A stretch of DNA of 49,340 bases from an uncultured Clostridia bacterium (lineage in GTDB: Bacteria > Bacillota > Clostridia > UMGS1883), in assembly GCA_947629005.1 (NCBI GenBank), contig CANRCD010000013.1, positions 1 through 49,340 on the forward strand, written 5' to 3'. Below the pieces are notes generated by a model. It saw only the letters and a program-made list of their open reading frames with translations. It searched no databases and had not been told where the DNA came from. This document shows, piece by piece, positions 18,694 through 25,917 of this stretch; the stretch's first letter is position 1; each line of letters begins with the position of its first letter. A program made the position numbers and the translations under genes.

Positions 18694-21600
18694 ATGAAAA
18701 AGCTTTTGACCTTGATAACGGCCCTTGCTATGGTGCTGGCCCTTGTTCCCGGGATGGCATTATCCGCCGCAGCCGAAGTAGGGGCTGCCTACGCCTTTTA
18801 CACGGTTGAGGGGCTCACAAGCGCTGCTCCGGACGCTTCGTATAAGTTTATCGGCGATCAGCTCGGCAACAGCTGGACGCCATATCCCTGGAACAGCGAC
18901 AGAGTTCGCAATTCGAACTGGAACGGCTGGAACGGCGCCGCGCAGCTTTATTCCTGCTATGACGACAACGGAACGATAATTGACTGCGGAAATACGGACG
19001 GCACAATCAATGCCAACAACGTCGTTAAAAACGGCACAAAAGGCAAGGATTATTTCGTCCTCACCTGGAAGGCCGAATCTCAAAACAATGCGCTTGAACA
19101 AGGCATAAGTAAGCCGGGGAAAGTAAACTATTCCATACTGGCTTCGGACGGCAATACCGTTGTTGACTCTTTCAGCGTTTGGGGCAGCAACGCTGAGGGA
19201 CTTAACCCCAACGCGGGCAGCGCTTCCCCGGCGGGCTTCAGCTATGAGGACAACGGCGCGGCTGCAAACGGCGCGGCGGCCATTAAAACGCAATACTACA
19301 TGGTATATGCCAACAATGCTGATAAGAGCGGATACAAGGTATTCTACTACTACAAAGAGCCTTCCGCCAAATCGGCTGTGTGGATAGGAACAAAATCCTT
19401 CAGCGGTAAGAGTATAGACGGTTTCGGCGGCTTTACCCTCGGTCGTGGAGAAGGCGGCTGGTCGCGTATGTTCAACTTCGAGGTATATGCGGGTATGTAT
19501 TCCGACCTTAAAAGCTATACCGTAAAATACCTTTGCGCCGGCGCTCCGCAGCCGGAAAAAACTCTCCTTGTCTCCGGTAGCGACGCTATGCGCCTCGGCT
19601 ACAATAAGGACGTCGTATTACCTCTTCTCGATATTCCTTATTTTAGCGGCTATGTTTTTAAAAACAAAACCGTGTCCGGCAATGAAGTAACCCTCAATTA
19701 TGAGCAGACAAATCCCGACGCGCTGTTTTTTGACAACGTGAGGGGGAAAAATCCCAACGAAAAATTTATAAACCTTAATATGCTCGGCGCTCACGATGCG
19801 TTTACCGCCGGCATGACCGATAAAAAAGATGCGGCGGGAACCGTCATGGACGATGGGGCAAAAGCCGCTGCGTATAGTCCCGGCACCGCCCTGCCGATAA
19901 GTAAGGCTCAAAGCGGCGACGCGCTCACCCTTCTTAACAGCGGAGTAAGGTATTTTGATATACGACTGTCCCGCTCCACTGTTGCCGCAAGTGGGAGATA
20001 TCTTCTTTTTATGAGTTACGAGGCTCCTCACACAAACGGCGTGTTCTACACCACTCACGGCCTTTTGGGCGATGAGTTTGCCCCGGTTATGTTTACCATA
20101 GCTCAGTGGGCAAAGGAGCACCCGGGTGAAATAATCGTGCTCGATTTCCAGGAGTGCTATGACTATAACGGCGATAAAGGCGACTCCACCGCCGATACCT
20201 GGCGCGACATTGATAAAATCCTCGCCGGCACCGGCGTAAAAGAATTTGTCACCCTAGACAAGAATTCCGATATTGCAGCCCAGACCTATGCGGGGCTTAC
20301 GGCCAACGGCACAAGGTCAAACATCGTGCTTTTCGGCAGATATGTTGCCACCAATGCGGGTGTCGGGAATTTCATTCTGCGCGGCGACTTAAACGGCGCC
20401 TTCAACGGCAAGGTATATTCCAACTATGATAAAACCGGCGTAAACATAACGAGCAAATATAATCCGACATACATACAGTCCCAGGTTGACACAGGGCATA
20501 CAGACGCCAGGTTTTCCGAAATGTACCGCGTTATGCAGGCGCAGAGCGGAGGCGCTACCGTCAATCTTATAAATCAGGCCGCAAGTGACCACGAAGCTTT
20601 GCTTGCCGACCTTAAAGGAGATAAATCAGCGTGGCTTGAACAGCTCCCCGTTGTTATGGTTGACGACGCGGCGGTTGGCACGGAGGAGCTTCTCGCCCTG
20701 TTGAAGAGCAGTAACGAAAATGTGAATATAACCTATACTCTTGACGGCAAAACTATAAAAACGGATACGCGTAAAAAGAATGTGGCTTATGATTTCAGCT
20801 ATAGAAGGGGCTACACGGGCAACACGCTCTATATGGCCGACCCGTCCAACAGCAGACCTTCGGGCGATGTTTCAGATGTGACTGTACCCCTTGTTTCCGT
20901 GAAGAACGCAGACGTTAATGGCATAAAAAAGAACAGTATTATCGAGCGCGAAGGGAAAAAATACATTGTTGCCAGCGATAACCTGATTCCCAACGGTGAT
21001 TTTGCATTTGGAACCGCAGGCTTTTACACCGGAAATGATGGCAACGTCCCGATAAAATTTTCCGCTTCAGACAACAAAATAACCAATCTCGGAAACACGG
21101 GGAAGGCCGGCGAATATTCATTCTATTCCGTATTTGACATTGAAAAAGGCAAAACCTATCTAACCACTATTGATATTGACACTACCAATGAAAAAGGAAC
21201 ACTTGACAATAGCAACAACAACTATACGCTGTTCGGTGTCTACGACAGCATTAAAGACAGCGCCGGTGACGCCCAGGGCGGCGACAATAACGCTTTTAAG
21301 CTTACCGCAAAGACAAACGGCTTTACAACGAAGGAGGCCATAGTCCATAACGCCAACGGAAAATATATGGCTTACAGCTTCCGCTGGATAGGCAATGCCG
21401 GAACAACCTCATACAAAAATTTCGGTCTTTATGAGCTTGCCGAAATACCCACACCGACCCCCGCTTTGGGTTGGGACGGCAGCAACTTTACGATCGACTT
21501 CCTTCTCGGCGATAAGGCCGTCAGCGGAATAACCTATGACGTTGAGGTATACCGCGGAGAGGAGCTTGCGGGAGAAGCCGATGTGACCGTGAGCGACAGC

Positions 21601-22113
21601 ATCAACGGCATTCCCTTTGCCCCCGGCTCCACAAACGCCGTATATACGGCTAAGATTGAGGGCGGCGACAGCTCCGCCAAAGTTAGCGTTTACAGCCTTG
21701 TTGCCGAGGCCATAGAGAACGGCAACTTTGGCGAGGGCAAGGCCATGAAAAAGGCGCAGGCCGACGCGGCGGCGAAGGTTATAACCGCGGGCGGTATCTA
21801 TATGAGGAACGGTCAGCTCAACGAATACACCGCAAAGGTGCTTGATCCCACCGAAAACGGCGTAAAAATCAAGGATGAACTTTTCGCCGCAGGGCTGAAA
21901 TTTGCCGCCGGAACCGCAAAATACGAGACCGACTCCGGCGAAAAACATGATATAACCATTGAGGCCGGAGCCAAGAGCATAGATATTCCGAACTTCAACG
22001 CGCAGGAGGCCGAAACCTTCATTCTGCACGAGATAGAGTTCGTTTTCGAGCCTGAGGGCATTTCCGAAACTGATACCGACTCCGGCGAAATCGACTTTGT
22101 GGAAGAAATATAA
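18694..22113 (+). CDS. Secreted PLC-X-type phosphodiesterase, large
   Basis: Exported 1139-residue protein with a clear signal peptide (MKKLLTLITALAMVLALVPG, cleavage near SAAA). Residues about 40-290 are beta-rich. The catalytic domain, about 355-680, has the PI-PLC-X pattern: His367 in LGAHDAFT, Asp422 and Arg424 in YFDIRLSR, His455 in YTTHGLLGDEF and Asp484 in EIIVLDFQE. The two histidines are the expected general base and acid. A carbohydrate-binding-like module (about 760-900) and two smaller beta domains follow. There is no LPXTG, SLH or dockerin motif, so it is probably released. The substrate is unknown: phosphatidylinositol, a glycolipid or another phosphodiester is possible. AAGGAAGGG precedes the ATG. 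The next gene starts in the ribosome binding site overlapping its stop, so the two are co-translated. Its GC content looks lower than that of its neighbours. Confidence 0.85.
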   Translation: MKKLLTLITALAMVLALVPGMALSAAAEVGAAYAFYTVEGLTSAAPDASYKFIGDQLGNSWTPYPWNSDRVRNSNWNGWNGAAQLYSCYDDNGTIIDCGNTDGTINANNVVKNGTKGKDYFVLTWKAESQNNALEQGISKPGKVNYSILASDGNTVVDSFSVWGSNAEGLNPNAGSASPAGFSYEDNGAAANGAAAIKTQYYMVYANNADKSGYKVFYYYKEPSAKSAVWIGTKSFSGKSIDGFGGFTLGRGEGGWSRMFNFEVYAGMYSDLKSYTVKYLCAGAPQPEKTLLVSGSDAMRLGYNKDVVLPLLDIPYFSGYVFKNKTVSGNEVTLNYEQTNPDALFFDNVRGKNPNEKFINLNMLGAHDAFTAGMTDKKDAAGTVMDDGAKAAAYSPGTALPISKAQSGDALTLLNSGVRYFDIRLSRSTVAASGRYLLFMSYEAPHTNGVFYTTHGLLGDEFAPVMFTIAQWAKEHPGEIIVLDFQECYDYNGDKGDSTADTWRDIDKILAGTGVKEFVTLDKNSDIAAQTYAGLTANGTRSNIVLFGRYVATNAGVGNFILRGDLNGAFNGKVYSNYDKTGVNITSKYNPTYIQSQVDTGHTDARFSEMYRVMQAQSGGATVNLINQAASDHEALLADLKGDKSAWLEQLPVVMVDDAAVGTEELLALLKSSNENVNITYTLDGKTIKTDTRKKNVAYDFSYRRGYTGNTLYMADPSNSRPSGDVSDVTVPLVSVKNADVNGIKKNSIIEREGKKYIVASDNLIPNGDFAFGTAGFYTGNDGNVPIKFSASDNKITNLGNTGKAGEYSFYSVFDIEKGKTYLTTIDIDTTNEKGTLDNSNNNYTLFGVYDSIKDSAGDAQGGDNNAFKLTAKTNGFTTKEAIVHNANGKYMAYSFRWIGNAGTTSYKNFGLYELAEIPTPTPALGWDGSNFTIDFLLGDKAVSGITYDVEVYRGEELAGEADVTVSDSINGIPFAPGSTNAVYTAKIEGGDSSAKVSVYSLVAEAIENGNFGEGKAMKKAQADAAAKVITAGGIYMRNGQLNEYTAKVLDPTENGVKIKDELFAAGLKFAAGTAKYETDSGEKHDITIEAGAKSIDIPNFNAQEAETFILHEIEFVFEPEGISETDTDSGEIDFVEEI

Positions 22114-22126
22114 GGAGGGCAAGGCG

Positions 22127-22297
22127 ATGAAAAAGGAATTTATTATACCCGCCGTCGAAGCGGCAGATCTCGGCGCGGCTGACGCCATTATGTTGTCGGA
22201 AAACTTTGCTGAGCCCAACAAAGTAAACTATACCACGATAATTCAAGATTCGCTCCCTGTCACCGACGAGTACGAAATCTGGAAAGGCATGAATTAA
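22127..22297 (+). CDS. Small peptide of unknown function (56 residues)
   Basis: Encoded immediately after the PLC gene; its AAGGAGG overlaps the PLC stop (TAAGGAGG), which ties translation of the two. The peptide starts MKKEFIIPAVEAADL and ends EYEIWKGMN. It has no cysteine, no signal peptide and no membrane segment, and it is acidic. The start resembles a loose pattern seen in many short Clostridia peptides: two lysines, an aromatic, two residues and a proline, then an acidic stretch and an Asp-x-Ile before a Ser. Those peptides are of unknown function and are sometimes suspected to be precursors or exported signals. No modifying enzyme or peptidase is encoded nearby, so no class is assigned. 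A strong terminator follows at once. Confidence 0.75.
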   Translation: MKKEFIIPAVEAADLGAADAIMLSENFAEPNKVNYTTIIQDSLPVTDEYEIWKGMN

Positions 22298-22333: not shown

Positions 22334-22362
22334 TTGACAAGCGCTTGTTTTTCGTGTATAAT
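22334..22362 (+). promoter_or_regulatory. Perfect consensus promoter of the GTPase-Rae1 gene, with a palindrome
   Basis: TTGACA (22334-22339), 17 nt and TATAAT (22357-22362). A perfect 12-bp palindrome, ACAAGCGCTTGT (22337-22348), covers the end of the -35 box and half the spacer. A central CG in such a palindrome is typical of LacI-family operators (family knowledge), so repression at this site is plausible. The leader to the ATG is only about 25 nt. Confidence 0.85.
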
Positions 22363-22394
22363 AAAAATCATCTTAACCGAAGGGAGGCCGCGCA

Positions 22395-25004
22395 ATGGCG
22401 AAAAAGATTGTTATCGGAATGCTCGCACACGTTGACGCGGGCAAAACCACCCTTTCCGAGGGACTGCTCTATACCGCAGGGGAGCTCCGCCGCGTGGGCC
22501 GCGTGGATCACCGCGACGCATACCTAGACAACCACGCCATTGAGCGCGAAAAGGGCATAACCGTCTTTTCCAAGCAGGCGACGCTTACGCTTGGCGGCCT
22601 TGACATAACCCTGATGGACACCCCCGGCCACGCGGATTTTTCCGCCGAAACCGAGCGCGCCCTGAGCGTGCTTGACTGCGCCGTTCTCGTCGTCAGCGGG
22701 GTAGACGGCGTGCAAAGCCACACCGAAACTCTGTGGCGGCTGCTGAGGCGGATGAACATTCCGGCCTTTGTGTTCGTGAACAAGATGGACATCTCGCGCC
22801 GCACCCGCGCCGATCTTACCGCCGAGCTGAACAACCGCCTCGGCCCCGGGTTTACGGACTTTACCGCCGATGAGGGAGACGCCTTTTACGAGTCGCTTTC
22901 CCTCACAGATGACAATATAATGGAAAAATTTCTCGAGGGCAAGCCCGTTGACTGCGCCGACGTCGCCGCCGCCATAGCCGCGGGGCGCGTGTTCCCCTGC
23001 CGCTTCGGGTCGGCTCTTAAAATGGAGGGCGTGCGCGAATTCGTGGATACTCTCGTCCAATATATAACTGTACCTGAGCGCGGCGCGGAGTTTGGCGCAC
23101 GGGTTTTCAAAATATCCGAGGACGCGCAGGGAGGCCGCCTTACCCACATGAAAATAACCGGCGGCAGTCTGCGGGTGCGCTCGCCGCTTGCCGAAACGGG
23201 TGAAAAAATAACGCAGCTGCGCGTCTATTCCGGCGCGAAATATAAAACCGTTGACGAGGCAGAGGCCGGCTGCGTCGTGGCCGCGCTGGGGCTTGCCTCG
23301 GTGCCCGCCGGAGCAGCGCTCGGGGCGGAAAAAGCGTCGGCCCCGCCAGTGCTGGAGCCGATACTCAGCTACAGCGTCGTTTTGCCGCCGGGACTCGACA
23401 GCGCCGAGGCCCTTAAAAGCCTGCGCCGCCTTGAGCAGGAGGAGCCGGAGCTAAGCGTGGTTTGGGACGAGCGTCTGCGCGAGATTCGCGTCCGCGTCAT
23501 GGGCAAGGTTCAGCTTGAGGTGCTGGCCCGCCTCGCCAAGGACCGCTTCGGCATGGAGCTGGCTTTTGGCCTCGGCAGCATAGCCTACAAGGAGACTATC
23601 GCCGCGCCCGCCGTGGGCGTTGGGCATTACGAGCCTCTGCGCCACTACGCCGAGGTGCATTTGCTGCTGGAGCCCACCGTTCGCGGCAGCGGGCTCAGCT
23701 TTGAGACCGATTGCTCCGAGGACGTGCTCGACAAAAACTGGCAGCGGCTGATACTTACGCATTTGCGGGAAAAGGCGCATTTGGGCGTGCTGACCGGCTC
23801 GCCCATAACCGACATGAGGATAACGCTGACAGCGGGCCGCGCCCACAAAAAGCACACCGAGGGCGGCGACTTTCGCCAAGCGACATATCGCGCGGTGCGT
23901 CAGGGACTGCGCTCGGCGCAGAGCCTGCTGCTCGAGCCGTGGTACAGCTTCACCCTCGAGGTTCCGCCTGAAAGCTTGGGCCGAGCGATGAACGACGTGC
24001 GGCTCATGGGCGGCAGCGTTTCCCCGCCGGAAACCGGCGAAACCGCCGTGCTGCGGGGGCGCGCGCCCGTGGCCGGTATGTGGGATTACGCCGCCGAGGT
24101 TTTGAGCTACACGAAGGGCGCGGGGCGGCTTAGCCTGTTGCCCGACGGCTATGAGGTCTGCGCGGACAGCGATAAGGTCATAGCGGAAATCGGCTACGAC
24201 TGCGACGCCGACACCGCCAACACCGCCGATTCCGTGTTCTGCGCGGGCGGCGCGGGCTTTGTGGTGCCTTGGTACGAGGCCCCCTCGCGTATGCACATCG
24301 AGAGCGGCTATTCCTTCGGCGGCGAGAAAAAGGTGGGCGGCGCGGAGCTAAAAGCGATGGCGGCGGACTACGTTCGCCGCGCCGCCGACGACGCGGAGCT
24401 GATGAGGATATTCGAGCGCACCTACGGCCCTATCCGCCGCGAAGCACGCCAAGCCGAGCGTAGGGAGCCCGTCACCCCCGCCGCACGCACGGCGGCGAAA
24501 AAACAGCCGCCCGCGCCCACCGGCCCCGAATACCTGATGGTGGACGGCTACAACGTGATTTTCGCGTGGGACGATTTGCGCGCGGAGGCTGAGGAAAGCC
24601 TCGAGGCCGCACGGAGCGCCCTCATCGACATGCTGTCAAATTACAAGGGCTTTTCCGGACTTGAGATTATTGTTGTGTTCGACGCCTACCGCGTCAAGGG
24701 CAGCCGCCGCGAGATCGAAAGGGTCGGCAGCGTCGATGTGGTATACACCAAGGAGGCCGAAACCGCCGATATGTATATAGAGAAGGTGACGCATAAGCTG
24801 AGCCGCGACCACCGCGTGCGCGTGGCCACGAGCGACAACACCGAGCAGGTGATAATTCTCGGCGGGGGCGCGCTCCGCCTGCCCGCGGCGGAGCTTCGCG
24901 CGGAGATAGACCGTGCCGGCGCCGCCATTCGCGAGATTTTGCGCGAGGCCGAGCTCGACCGCCCCGTGGAGCATATAAGTTGGGACGGCGGTAATAGCAA
25001 ATAA
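22395..25004 (+). CDS. Tet(M)/EF-G-like translational GTPase fused to a Rae1 (YacP) NYN nuclease domain
   Basis: An 869-residue fusion. Residues 1 to about 620 are an EF-G-type GTPase of the ribosomal-protection class: P-loop AHVDAGKTT (11-19), switch-I REKGIT, DTPGH (75-79), NKMD (129-132) and a GSALK G5 motif, then domains II to V. The tip loop of domain IV reads HKKHTEGGDF (484-493), not the YSPVST motif of Tet(M). A linker (about 620-712) rich in Ala and Arg follows. Residues 713-855 match Rae1/YacP from VDGYNVIFAWDDL on: Asp717, VVFDAYRVKG (Asp763), KEAETADMYIE (Asp792) and ATSDNTEQ (Asp814). Rae1 of B. subtilis is an endonuclease that cuts mRNA in the ribosomal A site (known). The GTPase part would dock the same site, so the protein probably combines ribosome binding or clearing with mRNA cleavage (inference). 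It is monocistronic, with a consensus promoter and terminators on both sides. Tetracycline resistance is possible but not supported by the loop. Confidence 0.9.
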   Translation: MAKKIVIGMLAHVDAGKTTLSEGLLYTAGELRRVGRVDHRDAYLDNHAIEREKGITVFSKQATLTLGGLDITLMDTPGHADFSAETERALSVLDCAVLVVSGVDGVQSHTETLWRLLRRMNIPAFVFVNKMDISRRTRADLTAELNNRLGPGFTDFTADEGDAFYESLSLTDDNIMEKFLEGKPVDCADVAAAIAAGRVFPCRFGSALKMEGVREFVDTLVQYITVPERGAEFGARVFKISEDAQGGRLTHMKITGGSLRVRSPLAETGEKITQLRVYSGAKYKTVDEAEAGCVVAALGLASVPAGAALGAEKASAPPVLEPILSYSVVLPPGLDSAEALKSLRRLEQEEPELSVVWDERLREIRVRVMGKVQLEVLARLAKDRFGMELAFGLGSIAYKETIAAPAVGVGHYEPLRHYAEVHLLLEPTVRGSGLSFETDCSEDVLDKNWQRLILTHLREKAHLGVLTGSPITDMRITLTAGRAHKKHTEGGDFRQATYRAVRQGLRSAQSLLLEPWYSFTLEVPPESLGRAMNDVRLMGGSVSPPETGETAVLRGRAPVAGMWDYAAEVLSYTKGAGRLSLLPDGYEVCADSDKVIAEIGYDCDADTANTADSVFCAGGAGFVVPWYEAPSRMHIESGYSFGGEKKVGGAELKAMAADYVRRAADDAELMRIFERTYGPIRREARQAERREPVTPAARTAAKKQPPAPTGPEYLMVDGYNVIFAWDDLRAEAEESLEAARSALIDMLSNYKGFSGLEIIVVFDAYRVKGSRREIERVGSVDVVYTKEAETADMYIEKVTHKLSRDHRVRVATSDNTEQVIILGGGALRLPAAELRAEIDRAGAAIREILREAELDRPVEHISWDGGNSK

Positions 25005-25027
25005 AAAAGGGCCTTGCGGCCCTTTTT
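25004..25027. terminator. Bidirectional terminator
   Basis: A 10-bp stem (arms AAAAAGGGCC and GGCCCTTTTT, loop TTGC) between convergent genes. A runs on the left and T runs on the right make it work in both directions, ending the GTPase-Rae1 gene and the sigma/anti-sigma operon. Confidence 0.92.
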
Positions 25028-25035
25028 GTTTTGGC

Positions 25036-25917
25036 TTACTTTACGCTTTCGCCGATCTTGATAATCTCGTCGCGTCCAACGCCGCCGTTTATGCCGACGG
25101 AAACGTCGCCGTCCTCCCAATCGAGGTTTCTGTCGCCGGAAAGCACGGCCTTGTGACCGTTTATTTCAAGCTCCTCAATCTCTTCGTCGGTACCCATGGA
25201 GAACGCGGTTTCGTCGTTGATAAGCCTCTCGTTCACATAGATATACTTATCGCCGTTCTTATAGATAACGGTCAGGTAATAGCGGCTGGTATCGAAATAG
25301 GCCGCGCCGTAGAAGCCGTAGCCCTTGGGCAGATATTCGGGAAGCCGGGGCGCGAAGTCCAGAGCGTCGTTCAGCTTAGCCATATCGGCCTCGTTGTCGA
25401 TTATGCTGTATCCGCTTTCTTCATAGCGCTTGAGGGGATCCTCGTCCTTATTGTAGCTTATGGTAATCTCCCCATTACCGTCCTCGGTGACATAGTCGGT
25501 AACGCCGTTATCGCGGAGGTACTGCCTCATGTCCTCCGGCTTTAACTCGTTGCCGTCCTTGTCGTAGAACACCTGTCCGTCGTGGTAGGTGGTGATAAGC
25601 TTGCCGTTTTCGTCATAGAAAATCTGAAGCTCTTCGGGCATTTCGGCCTCGTCCAAATCGACCTGATAAAACTTGTTGGTGCCGGTGGACAGCGTTTTTA
25701 TAATGTTGTCGATAAACTCCTTGGCGAAGGACGTCTGGCCGACGGCGGCCACAAGCCCCACGCAGGCGGCTATTGCGCCGACGCGGGCAAGCACGCGCTT
25801 TTTGGGCGTTTTGATTACGTTTTTCATGGCGTTTAACTCCTTTTCATTTAACTCTGAAACTTCGTAGGCTGAGAAATCAACAGTCGCGTCGTTTAGAATG
25901 TCGTACTGGTTTTTCAT
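25036..25917 (-). CDS. Membrane anti-sigma-type protein with DUF4367-like domain
   Basis: A 293-residue protein. The N-terminal 40 residues are cytoplasmic and lysine-rich, one membrane helix spans about 44-61, and the rest is outside. An acidic middle part (about 85-170) with repeated YDENGK/YDKDGN segments precedes a C-terminal domain (about 185-293). Its DFAPRLPEYLPKGYGFYGA and closing DVSVGINGGVGRDEIIKIGE patterns fit the DUF4367 family common in Clostridia next to sigma factors. It overlaps the sigma gene by 4 nt. Role by context: it holds the sigma factor at the membrane and releases it on an envelope signal (inference). No zinc-finger anti-sigma motif is present. Confidence 0.78.
   Translation of the reverse strand: MKNQYDILNDATVDFSAYEVSELNEKELNAMKNVIKTPKKRVLARVGAIAACVGLVAAVGQTSFAKEFIDNIIKTLSTGTNKFYQVDLDEAEMPEELQIFYDENGKLITTYHDGQVFYDKDGNELKPEDMRQYLRDNGVTDYVTEDGNGEITISYNKDEDPLKRYEESGYSIIDNEADMAKLNDALDFAPRLPEYLPKGYGFYGAAYFDTSRYYLTVIYKNGDKYIYVNERLINDETAFSMGTDEEIEELEINGHKAVLSGDRNLDWEDGDVSVGINGGVGRDEIIKIGESVK

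Follow-up and report, generated by a model that had tools for sequence, protein, structure and literature searches.

A gene of a gut bacterium encodes, in one reading frame, a translational GTPase of the EF-G fold followed by a nuclease domain of the Rae1/YacP type, and comparison across genomes indicates that this fusion has taken the place of stand-alone Rae1. The gene occupies positions 22395-25004 (+) of the window, by which we mean the whole 49,340-nucleotide stretch of DNA that was analyzed. We think it rather likely that its product is a Rae1 orthologue carried to the ribosome, and probably gated there, by its own GTPase.

The gene is single and intact, with an ATG at 22395, a stop codon at 25002-25004, and no internal stop. 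The original prediction had described an intact 869-residue GTPase with a C-terminal NYN domain; its coordinates, frame, and length proved exact, and the motifs it quoted are all present. Pfam recovered five EF-G domains together with NYN_YacP, each above its own curated cut-off. The G domain (aa 5-224, 22407-23066, PF00009 (GTP_EFTU), 2.1e-47) carries AHVDAGKT, T56, DTPGH, NKMD, and GSALK, and the catalytic H79 is invariant in the alignment columns. Domains II and III (aa 233-391, 23091-23567) were recognized by PF22042 (EF-G_D2, 233-305) and PF14492 (EFG_III, 321-391), and domain IV (aa 395-509, 23577-23921) by PF03764 (EFG_IV) and by loop comparison with Tet(M/O/W/S), OtrA, and EF-G. Domain V (aa 512-591, PF00679, EFG_C) and a clade-specific extension placed by alignment (aa 592-634) together span 23928-24296. 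Fused and unfused members alike conserve C589, C616, and H634 (window 24159-24296) in the region of this extension, residues that could together bind a metal.

A flexible linker of about 75 residues (aa 635-711, 24297-24527) leads to the NYN/PIN nuclease domain (aa 714-852, 24534-24950, PF05991 (NYN_YacP), 1.2e-46), and comparison of profiles and protein ends shows that the C-terminal 17 residues (24951-25001) lack the L...R tail conserved in stand-alone Rae1. All of these features lie on the + strand. The linker includes a helix, ELxxIFERTYG, at aa 666-677, with conserved E668, I672, and T676, and the motif was recognized in 75 of 97 fusions. In the AF2 model (mean pLDDT 86, pTM 0.67), the linker is disordered, mostly with pLDDT <50, and the NYN domain is given no confident placement relative to the GTPase. 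The structure search with the whole model was filled with EF-G-type matches (ribosome-bound EF-G at Z ~42, TetM at Z 32.7), and the NYN half was identified by sequence, not by fold. The proposal that the two domains share one active site region is not supported by this model, in which the G-domain switch and the nuclease site are predicted to belong to separate folded units connected by a long, low-confidence linker.

A perfect sigma-A-type promoter, TTGACA-17-TATAAT, was read from the sequence upstream of the gene (22334-22362, +, 12/12 match), in a region with five promoter-like sites against 0.8 in shuffles. It leaves a leader of about 25 nucleotides, in which a good ribosome binding site, AAGGGAGG (22380-22387, +), could be read directly. 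A terminator-like hairpin usable from both strands (25004-25027) lies between the fusion gene and a convergent gene at 25036-25917. A tet(M)-type attenuator leader was looked for and none is present in the window, the short leader leaving no room for one. Relatives of the gene showed no evident promoter pattern in common, and in 97 fusion loci no neighbor family recurred dominantly as an operon partner, the largest group comprising 16 loci in mixed positions. Upstream of the promoter, a 1139-residue protein with a signal-peptide-like start (18694-22113, +) adjoins the ribosomal S10 operon, and its motifs LGAHDAF and FDIR resemble a PI-specific phospholipase C domain. Just 3' of it, a small open frame of 56 residues (MKKEFIIPAVEAADLGAADAIMLSENFAEPNKVNYTTIIQDSLPVTDEYEIWKGMN, 22127-22297, +) has a strong ribosome binding site.

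The C-terminal domain aligned over its length with B. subtilis YacP/Rae1 (PDB 5mq8 and 5mq9, E 4e-27) and scored 159 bits against an NYN_YacP cut-off of 24.6, which places it within the Rae1/YacP domain family. All 40 fused and all 27 stand-alone domains compared carry the aspartates D717, D763, D792, and D814, as do all 70 alignment rows. N720, R740, T785, T790, and E796 are likewise identical in all fused and free domains examined, and Q818 is kept in 39/40 fused ones. The predicted Rae1 identity with an intact active site, including alignment at the four Asp positions, is therefore upheld. Rae1 attacks mRNA in the ribosomal A site (PMC12320835).

The end of the domain differs between the two forms. 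Counted from the start of the domain slice, all 27 free Rae1 proteins extend for 166-169 residues, with an invariant Leu and Arg close to the C-terminus. The ends of fused NYN domains are scattered between positions 129 and 189, and 57 of the 97 fusions match the free-Rae1 profile no further than about position 148 of 167. Many fused domains have shed a C-terminal tail that every sampled free Rae1 keeps, as would be expected if delivery to the ribosome had passed to the GTPase. A B. subtilis Rae1 variant altered close to the C-terminus, R166P, turned up among loss-of-function suppressors (PMC6613710); by approximate numbering, the change lies near the lost tail.

The architecture is widespread. 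The bacterium's own genome (97% complete) contains no YacP domain besides that of the fusion, and two more EF-G-type genes lie elsewhere. Among 14 genomes of the same order, 11 contain a single YacP domain, mostly in frames of 843-890 residues; two short frames, of 451 and 295 residues, may have been cut by contig ends or frameshifts. Across the class Clostridia, YacP was detected in 249 of 393 genomes, and the 150 listed YacP frames comprised 80 fusions, 65 stand-alone proteins (169-216 aa), and 5 of intermediate length. At least 590 loci encoding the protein were found in named genome contigs; among the best 80 of these, 76 hold a long intact frame and all 76 are fusions, from Lachnospiraceae, Oscillospiraceae, Ruminococcus, Intestinimonas, Anaerovorax, Fusibacter, and others. 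The Monoglobus fusion (862 aa) is named by NCBI as a translation factor GTPase family protein, and the phylum sample contained fusions in several further families. The search for the two-domain architecture across Clostridia that had been put forward as a check was thus answered positively, and an assembly or frameshift artefact joining two genes is excluded, the frame being open in at least 80 genomes and in the 76 named loci. Carriage by phage was considered and set aside: the two "Bacteriophage sp." records with a fusion (L073, MT835563.1; L074, MT835514.1) are unverified metagenome contigs, and L074 is most likely mislabeled bacterial DNA because its flanks look like feoB, gltX, glpK, and greA.

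Fused and free forms almost never occur together. With 80 fusions and 65 stand-alone genes, one genome with both was observed against 18.3 expected, with a p value (6e-10) that is too small because the test ignores shared ancestry. Exactly one YacP match was found in 244 of the 249 genomes, a pattern that repeats in the phylum sample. Among the remaining five, three have a fusion and a sub-cut-off match, one has a fusion and a broken copy, and one (G283; loci L206 and L207) is the sole sampled genome with a complete fusion and a complete stand-alone rae1, so that the two forms coexist there. Its free gene is still in the slot between rlmB and sigH. Of the 27 stand-alone rae1 loci read, most have the gene flanked by rlmB and a sigH-like gene. 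Seven of 20 fusion genomes retain an rlmB-sigH cluster from which rae1 is absent, and in the bacterium's own genome the cluster is dispersed. The mutual exclusion and the rlmB-sigH clusters that lack rae1 together argue that the fusion replaces Rae1, and they agree with the expectation that genomes with the fusion would lack the stand-alone gene.

GTPases of the same clade also exist without the nuclease. The closest NYN-less relatives are about 650 residues long and 41-47% identical, and such GTPases occur in 17 of the 60 genomes that carry stand-alone rae1 and in 2 of the 20 that lack YacP (G037 and G040). A Rosetta-stone link in unfused genomes was examined and rejected, as these counts represent loose co-occurrence only and the free genes lie apart where both exist. 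A Ligilactobacillus salivarius plasmid gene (L071:5983-7917) is also an NYN-less member of the clade, with 46% identity to the GTPase of the window; it adjoins rpsN and is annotated as a Tet-family protection protein. In the GTPase tree without long branches, the fused members form one group with a support of 78, which is not strong, and the fused members plus L. salivarius are grouped with a support of 100. A single clade of fused NYN domains was not rejected (p-AU 0.70). A single common origin of the fusion is thus compatible with both the GTPase and the NYN trees, and the simplest reading of them would be one ancient fusion followed by loss of the NYN domain toward L. salivarius. In one genome (G212), a stand-alone NYN domain (L211:5787-6308) falls among the fused ones in the tree and lies outside the rlmB cluster, with an unfused clade GTPase elsewhere; this arrangement could have survived from the donor of the fusion or have arisen when a fusion later split.

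The identity of the GTPase bears on what the fusion does. Atkinson 2015 (PMC4342817) filed such proteins under Tet and tied them to resistance, and according to that suggestion the GTPase would act like Tet(M) in clearing a drug from the A site, and the nuclease would add to resistance. In agreement with this, the best NCBIfam model is tet_protect (NF012153), and TetO and TetM are among the nearest solved factors. However, the score of 379 bits is half of the curated cut-off of 775, and a Tet(M) control reached 877. The tip of domain IV reads HKKHTEG in place of YSPVS, a motif absent throughout the clade, and K486 stands in the column of Tet(M) Pro509, the residue that lies in the drug site and contacts C1054 (PMC8161019). 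The clade has tip loops of its own, GHxEPLRHYAEV (aa 410-421) and GRAHxKHTxGGDFR (aa 481-494); fused and unfused members share GHFEPLRHYAEV and GRAHxKHTxGGDFR as well as the domain V extension (SVFCxxGAG...MH), and the alignment showed neither these loops nor the extension in Tet(M), Tet(O), Tet(W), Tet(S), OtrA, or EF-G. In the tree, Tet(M/O/W/S) occupy a branch of their own (support 96) and the fusion GTPase clade another (97 to 100), with OtrA as a long branch. The gene is also widespread in genome contigs, and the copy in the window has no attenuator leader. Drug protection is thus improbable as the role of the fusion, and tetracycline resistance by it is unsupported. The tip loops, K486, the low Tet score, and the separate branch mark the GTPase as a distinct EF-G-fold factor that shows no specific hint of drug protection. 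The "EF-G/Tet(M)-class" of the original prediction therefore stands as to the EF-G fold and its five domains, but not in the drug-protection sense of Tet(M).

Two further explanations leave the Tet question aside. The NYN domain might perform ordinary Rae1 work and the GTPase an unrelated job in translation, the fusion merely fixing their stoichiometry and location. The unfused clade GTPases, some of them in the two genomes devoid of any YacP, imply that the GTPase functions without NYN, and the NYN-less L. salivarius member inside or beside the fused clade points the same way. Against this, a single old fusion appears to have persisted in many families, where a second YacP copy hardly ever accompanies it, and the fused proteins have a conserved linker helix and have lost the tail of free Rae1; we regard two independent functions as rather unlikely, although less so than drug protection. 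Alternatively, the nuclease might cut rRNA or tRNA in maturation or quality control while the GTPase monitors the state of the ribosome. Processing of rRNA and tRNA was the first prediction for NYN/YacP, as cited in the passage of PMC4342817 on these proteins, but the domain keeps the catalytic and most other conserved residues of free Rae1, whose reported activity is A-site mRNA cleavage, and cutting of rRNA or tRNA seems very improbable.

The reading that we favor, delivery of a Rae1 orthologue by its own GTPase, would combine the known behavior of the two halves. In EF-G and Tet proteins, it is domain IV that enters the A site. The EF-G-fold GTPase, of a clade other than that of Tet(M), would bind the factor site of the ribosome with domain IV toward a vacant or stalled A site. 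The GTP cycle and release would then let the NYN domain, on its tether behind domain V, reach and cleave the A-site mRNA, and decay enzymes and tmRNA could then clear the ribosome. The GTPase would act first and the nuclease second, since domain IV and the Rae1 domain could hardly share the A site, and the tether would be long enough for the nuclease to swing over. That the fusion binds the ribosome, cleaves in the A site, and has its cut controlled by GTP is what we infer; the docking and subsequent cutting put forward in the original prediction are plausible. Several points count against delivery. Free Rae1 reaches the A site unaided, the model leaves the placement of the nuclease uncertain, and a clade GTPase is missing from about 43 of the 60 genomes that have free rae1, so that Rae1 needs no such partner in general. 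More tentatively, and with somewhat less than even confidence, we suggest that the GTPase senses a stalled or empty A site and that GTP hydrolysis hands the site to the tethered nuclease, licensing Rae1-type cutting. If true, a ribosome-state sensor would license mRNA cutting by Rae1 in a large part of gut Clostridia.

In the course of evolution, the nuclease has become attached to a single ribosomal factor; many Clostridial families have kept the pair and discarded the free enzyme. The fusion therefore makes the route of Rae1 to the A site, and its choice of ribosomes, directly testable. For an abundant gut-bacterial gene, the common annotation "Tet-family ribosomal protection protein" is probably mistaken, a point of importance for resistance-gene surveys.

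Among known systems, the closest are the Tet-NYN proteins of Clostridiales, which have the same architecture of an EF-G/Tet-like GTPase with a C-terminal YacP NYN domain and almost certainly belong to the same family as the protein described here. The passage that introduces them reports YacP-NYN on "Tet proteins" of ten Clostridiales in two sentences, which contain no functional or distribution work, and its resistance reading is unsupported by the tip loops, the curated cut-off, and the tree (PMC4342817). The original claim that no protein of this architecture had been characterized thus holds for function, as no functional study of any fused protein was found in the literature searched, but the architecture itself was published in 2015. 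The present work adds the evidence that the fusion replaces Rae1, the loss of the tail, and the arguments against a Tet function, although Condon 2018, on Rae1 distribution, could already describe the fusion. Tet(M) and Tet(O) resemble the fusion GTPase as EF-G-fold GTPases of similar length with ~29% identity, but they have the YYSPVS tip loop with Pro509, and the domain V extension and the NYN domain are features of the fusion only. EF-G shares the five domains and the GTPase motifs, and H484 keeps the histidine at what we take to be the tip position of EF-G His583. However, the fusion scores 270 bits against the TIGR00484 (EF-G) cut-off of 659, misses part of the G' insertion (134 to 160 in the query versus 140 to 210 in S. 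aureus EF-G), and differs in loop I, and the genome has its two separate EF-G-type genes. Rae1/YacP of B. subtilis is a free protein of ~170 residues with a conserved tail, encoded in the rlmB operon, whereas the fusion adds a GTPase and a linker, is often tailless (as in the window), and lies at a locus other than rlmB-rae1-sigH. Nevertheless, the two share the catalytic and conserved residues of the NYN domain, and the fusion fills the slot of Rae1 in the genome inventory.
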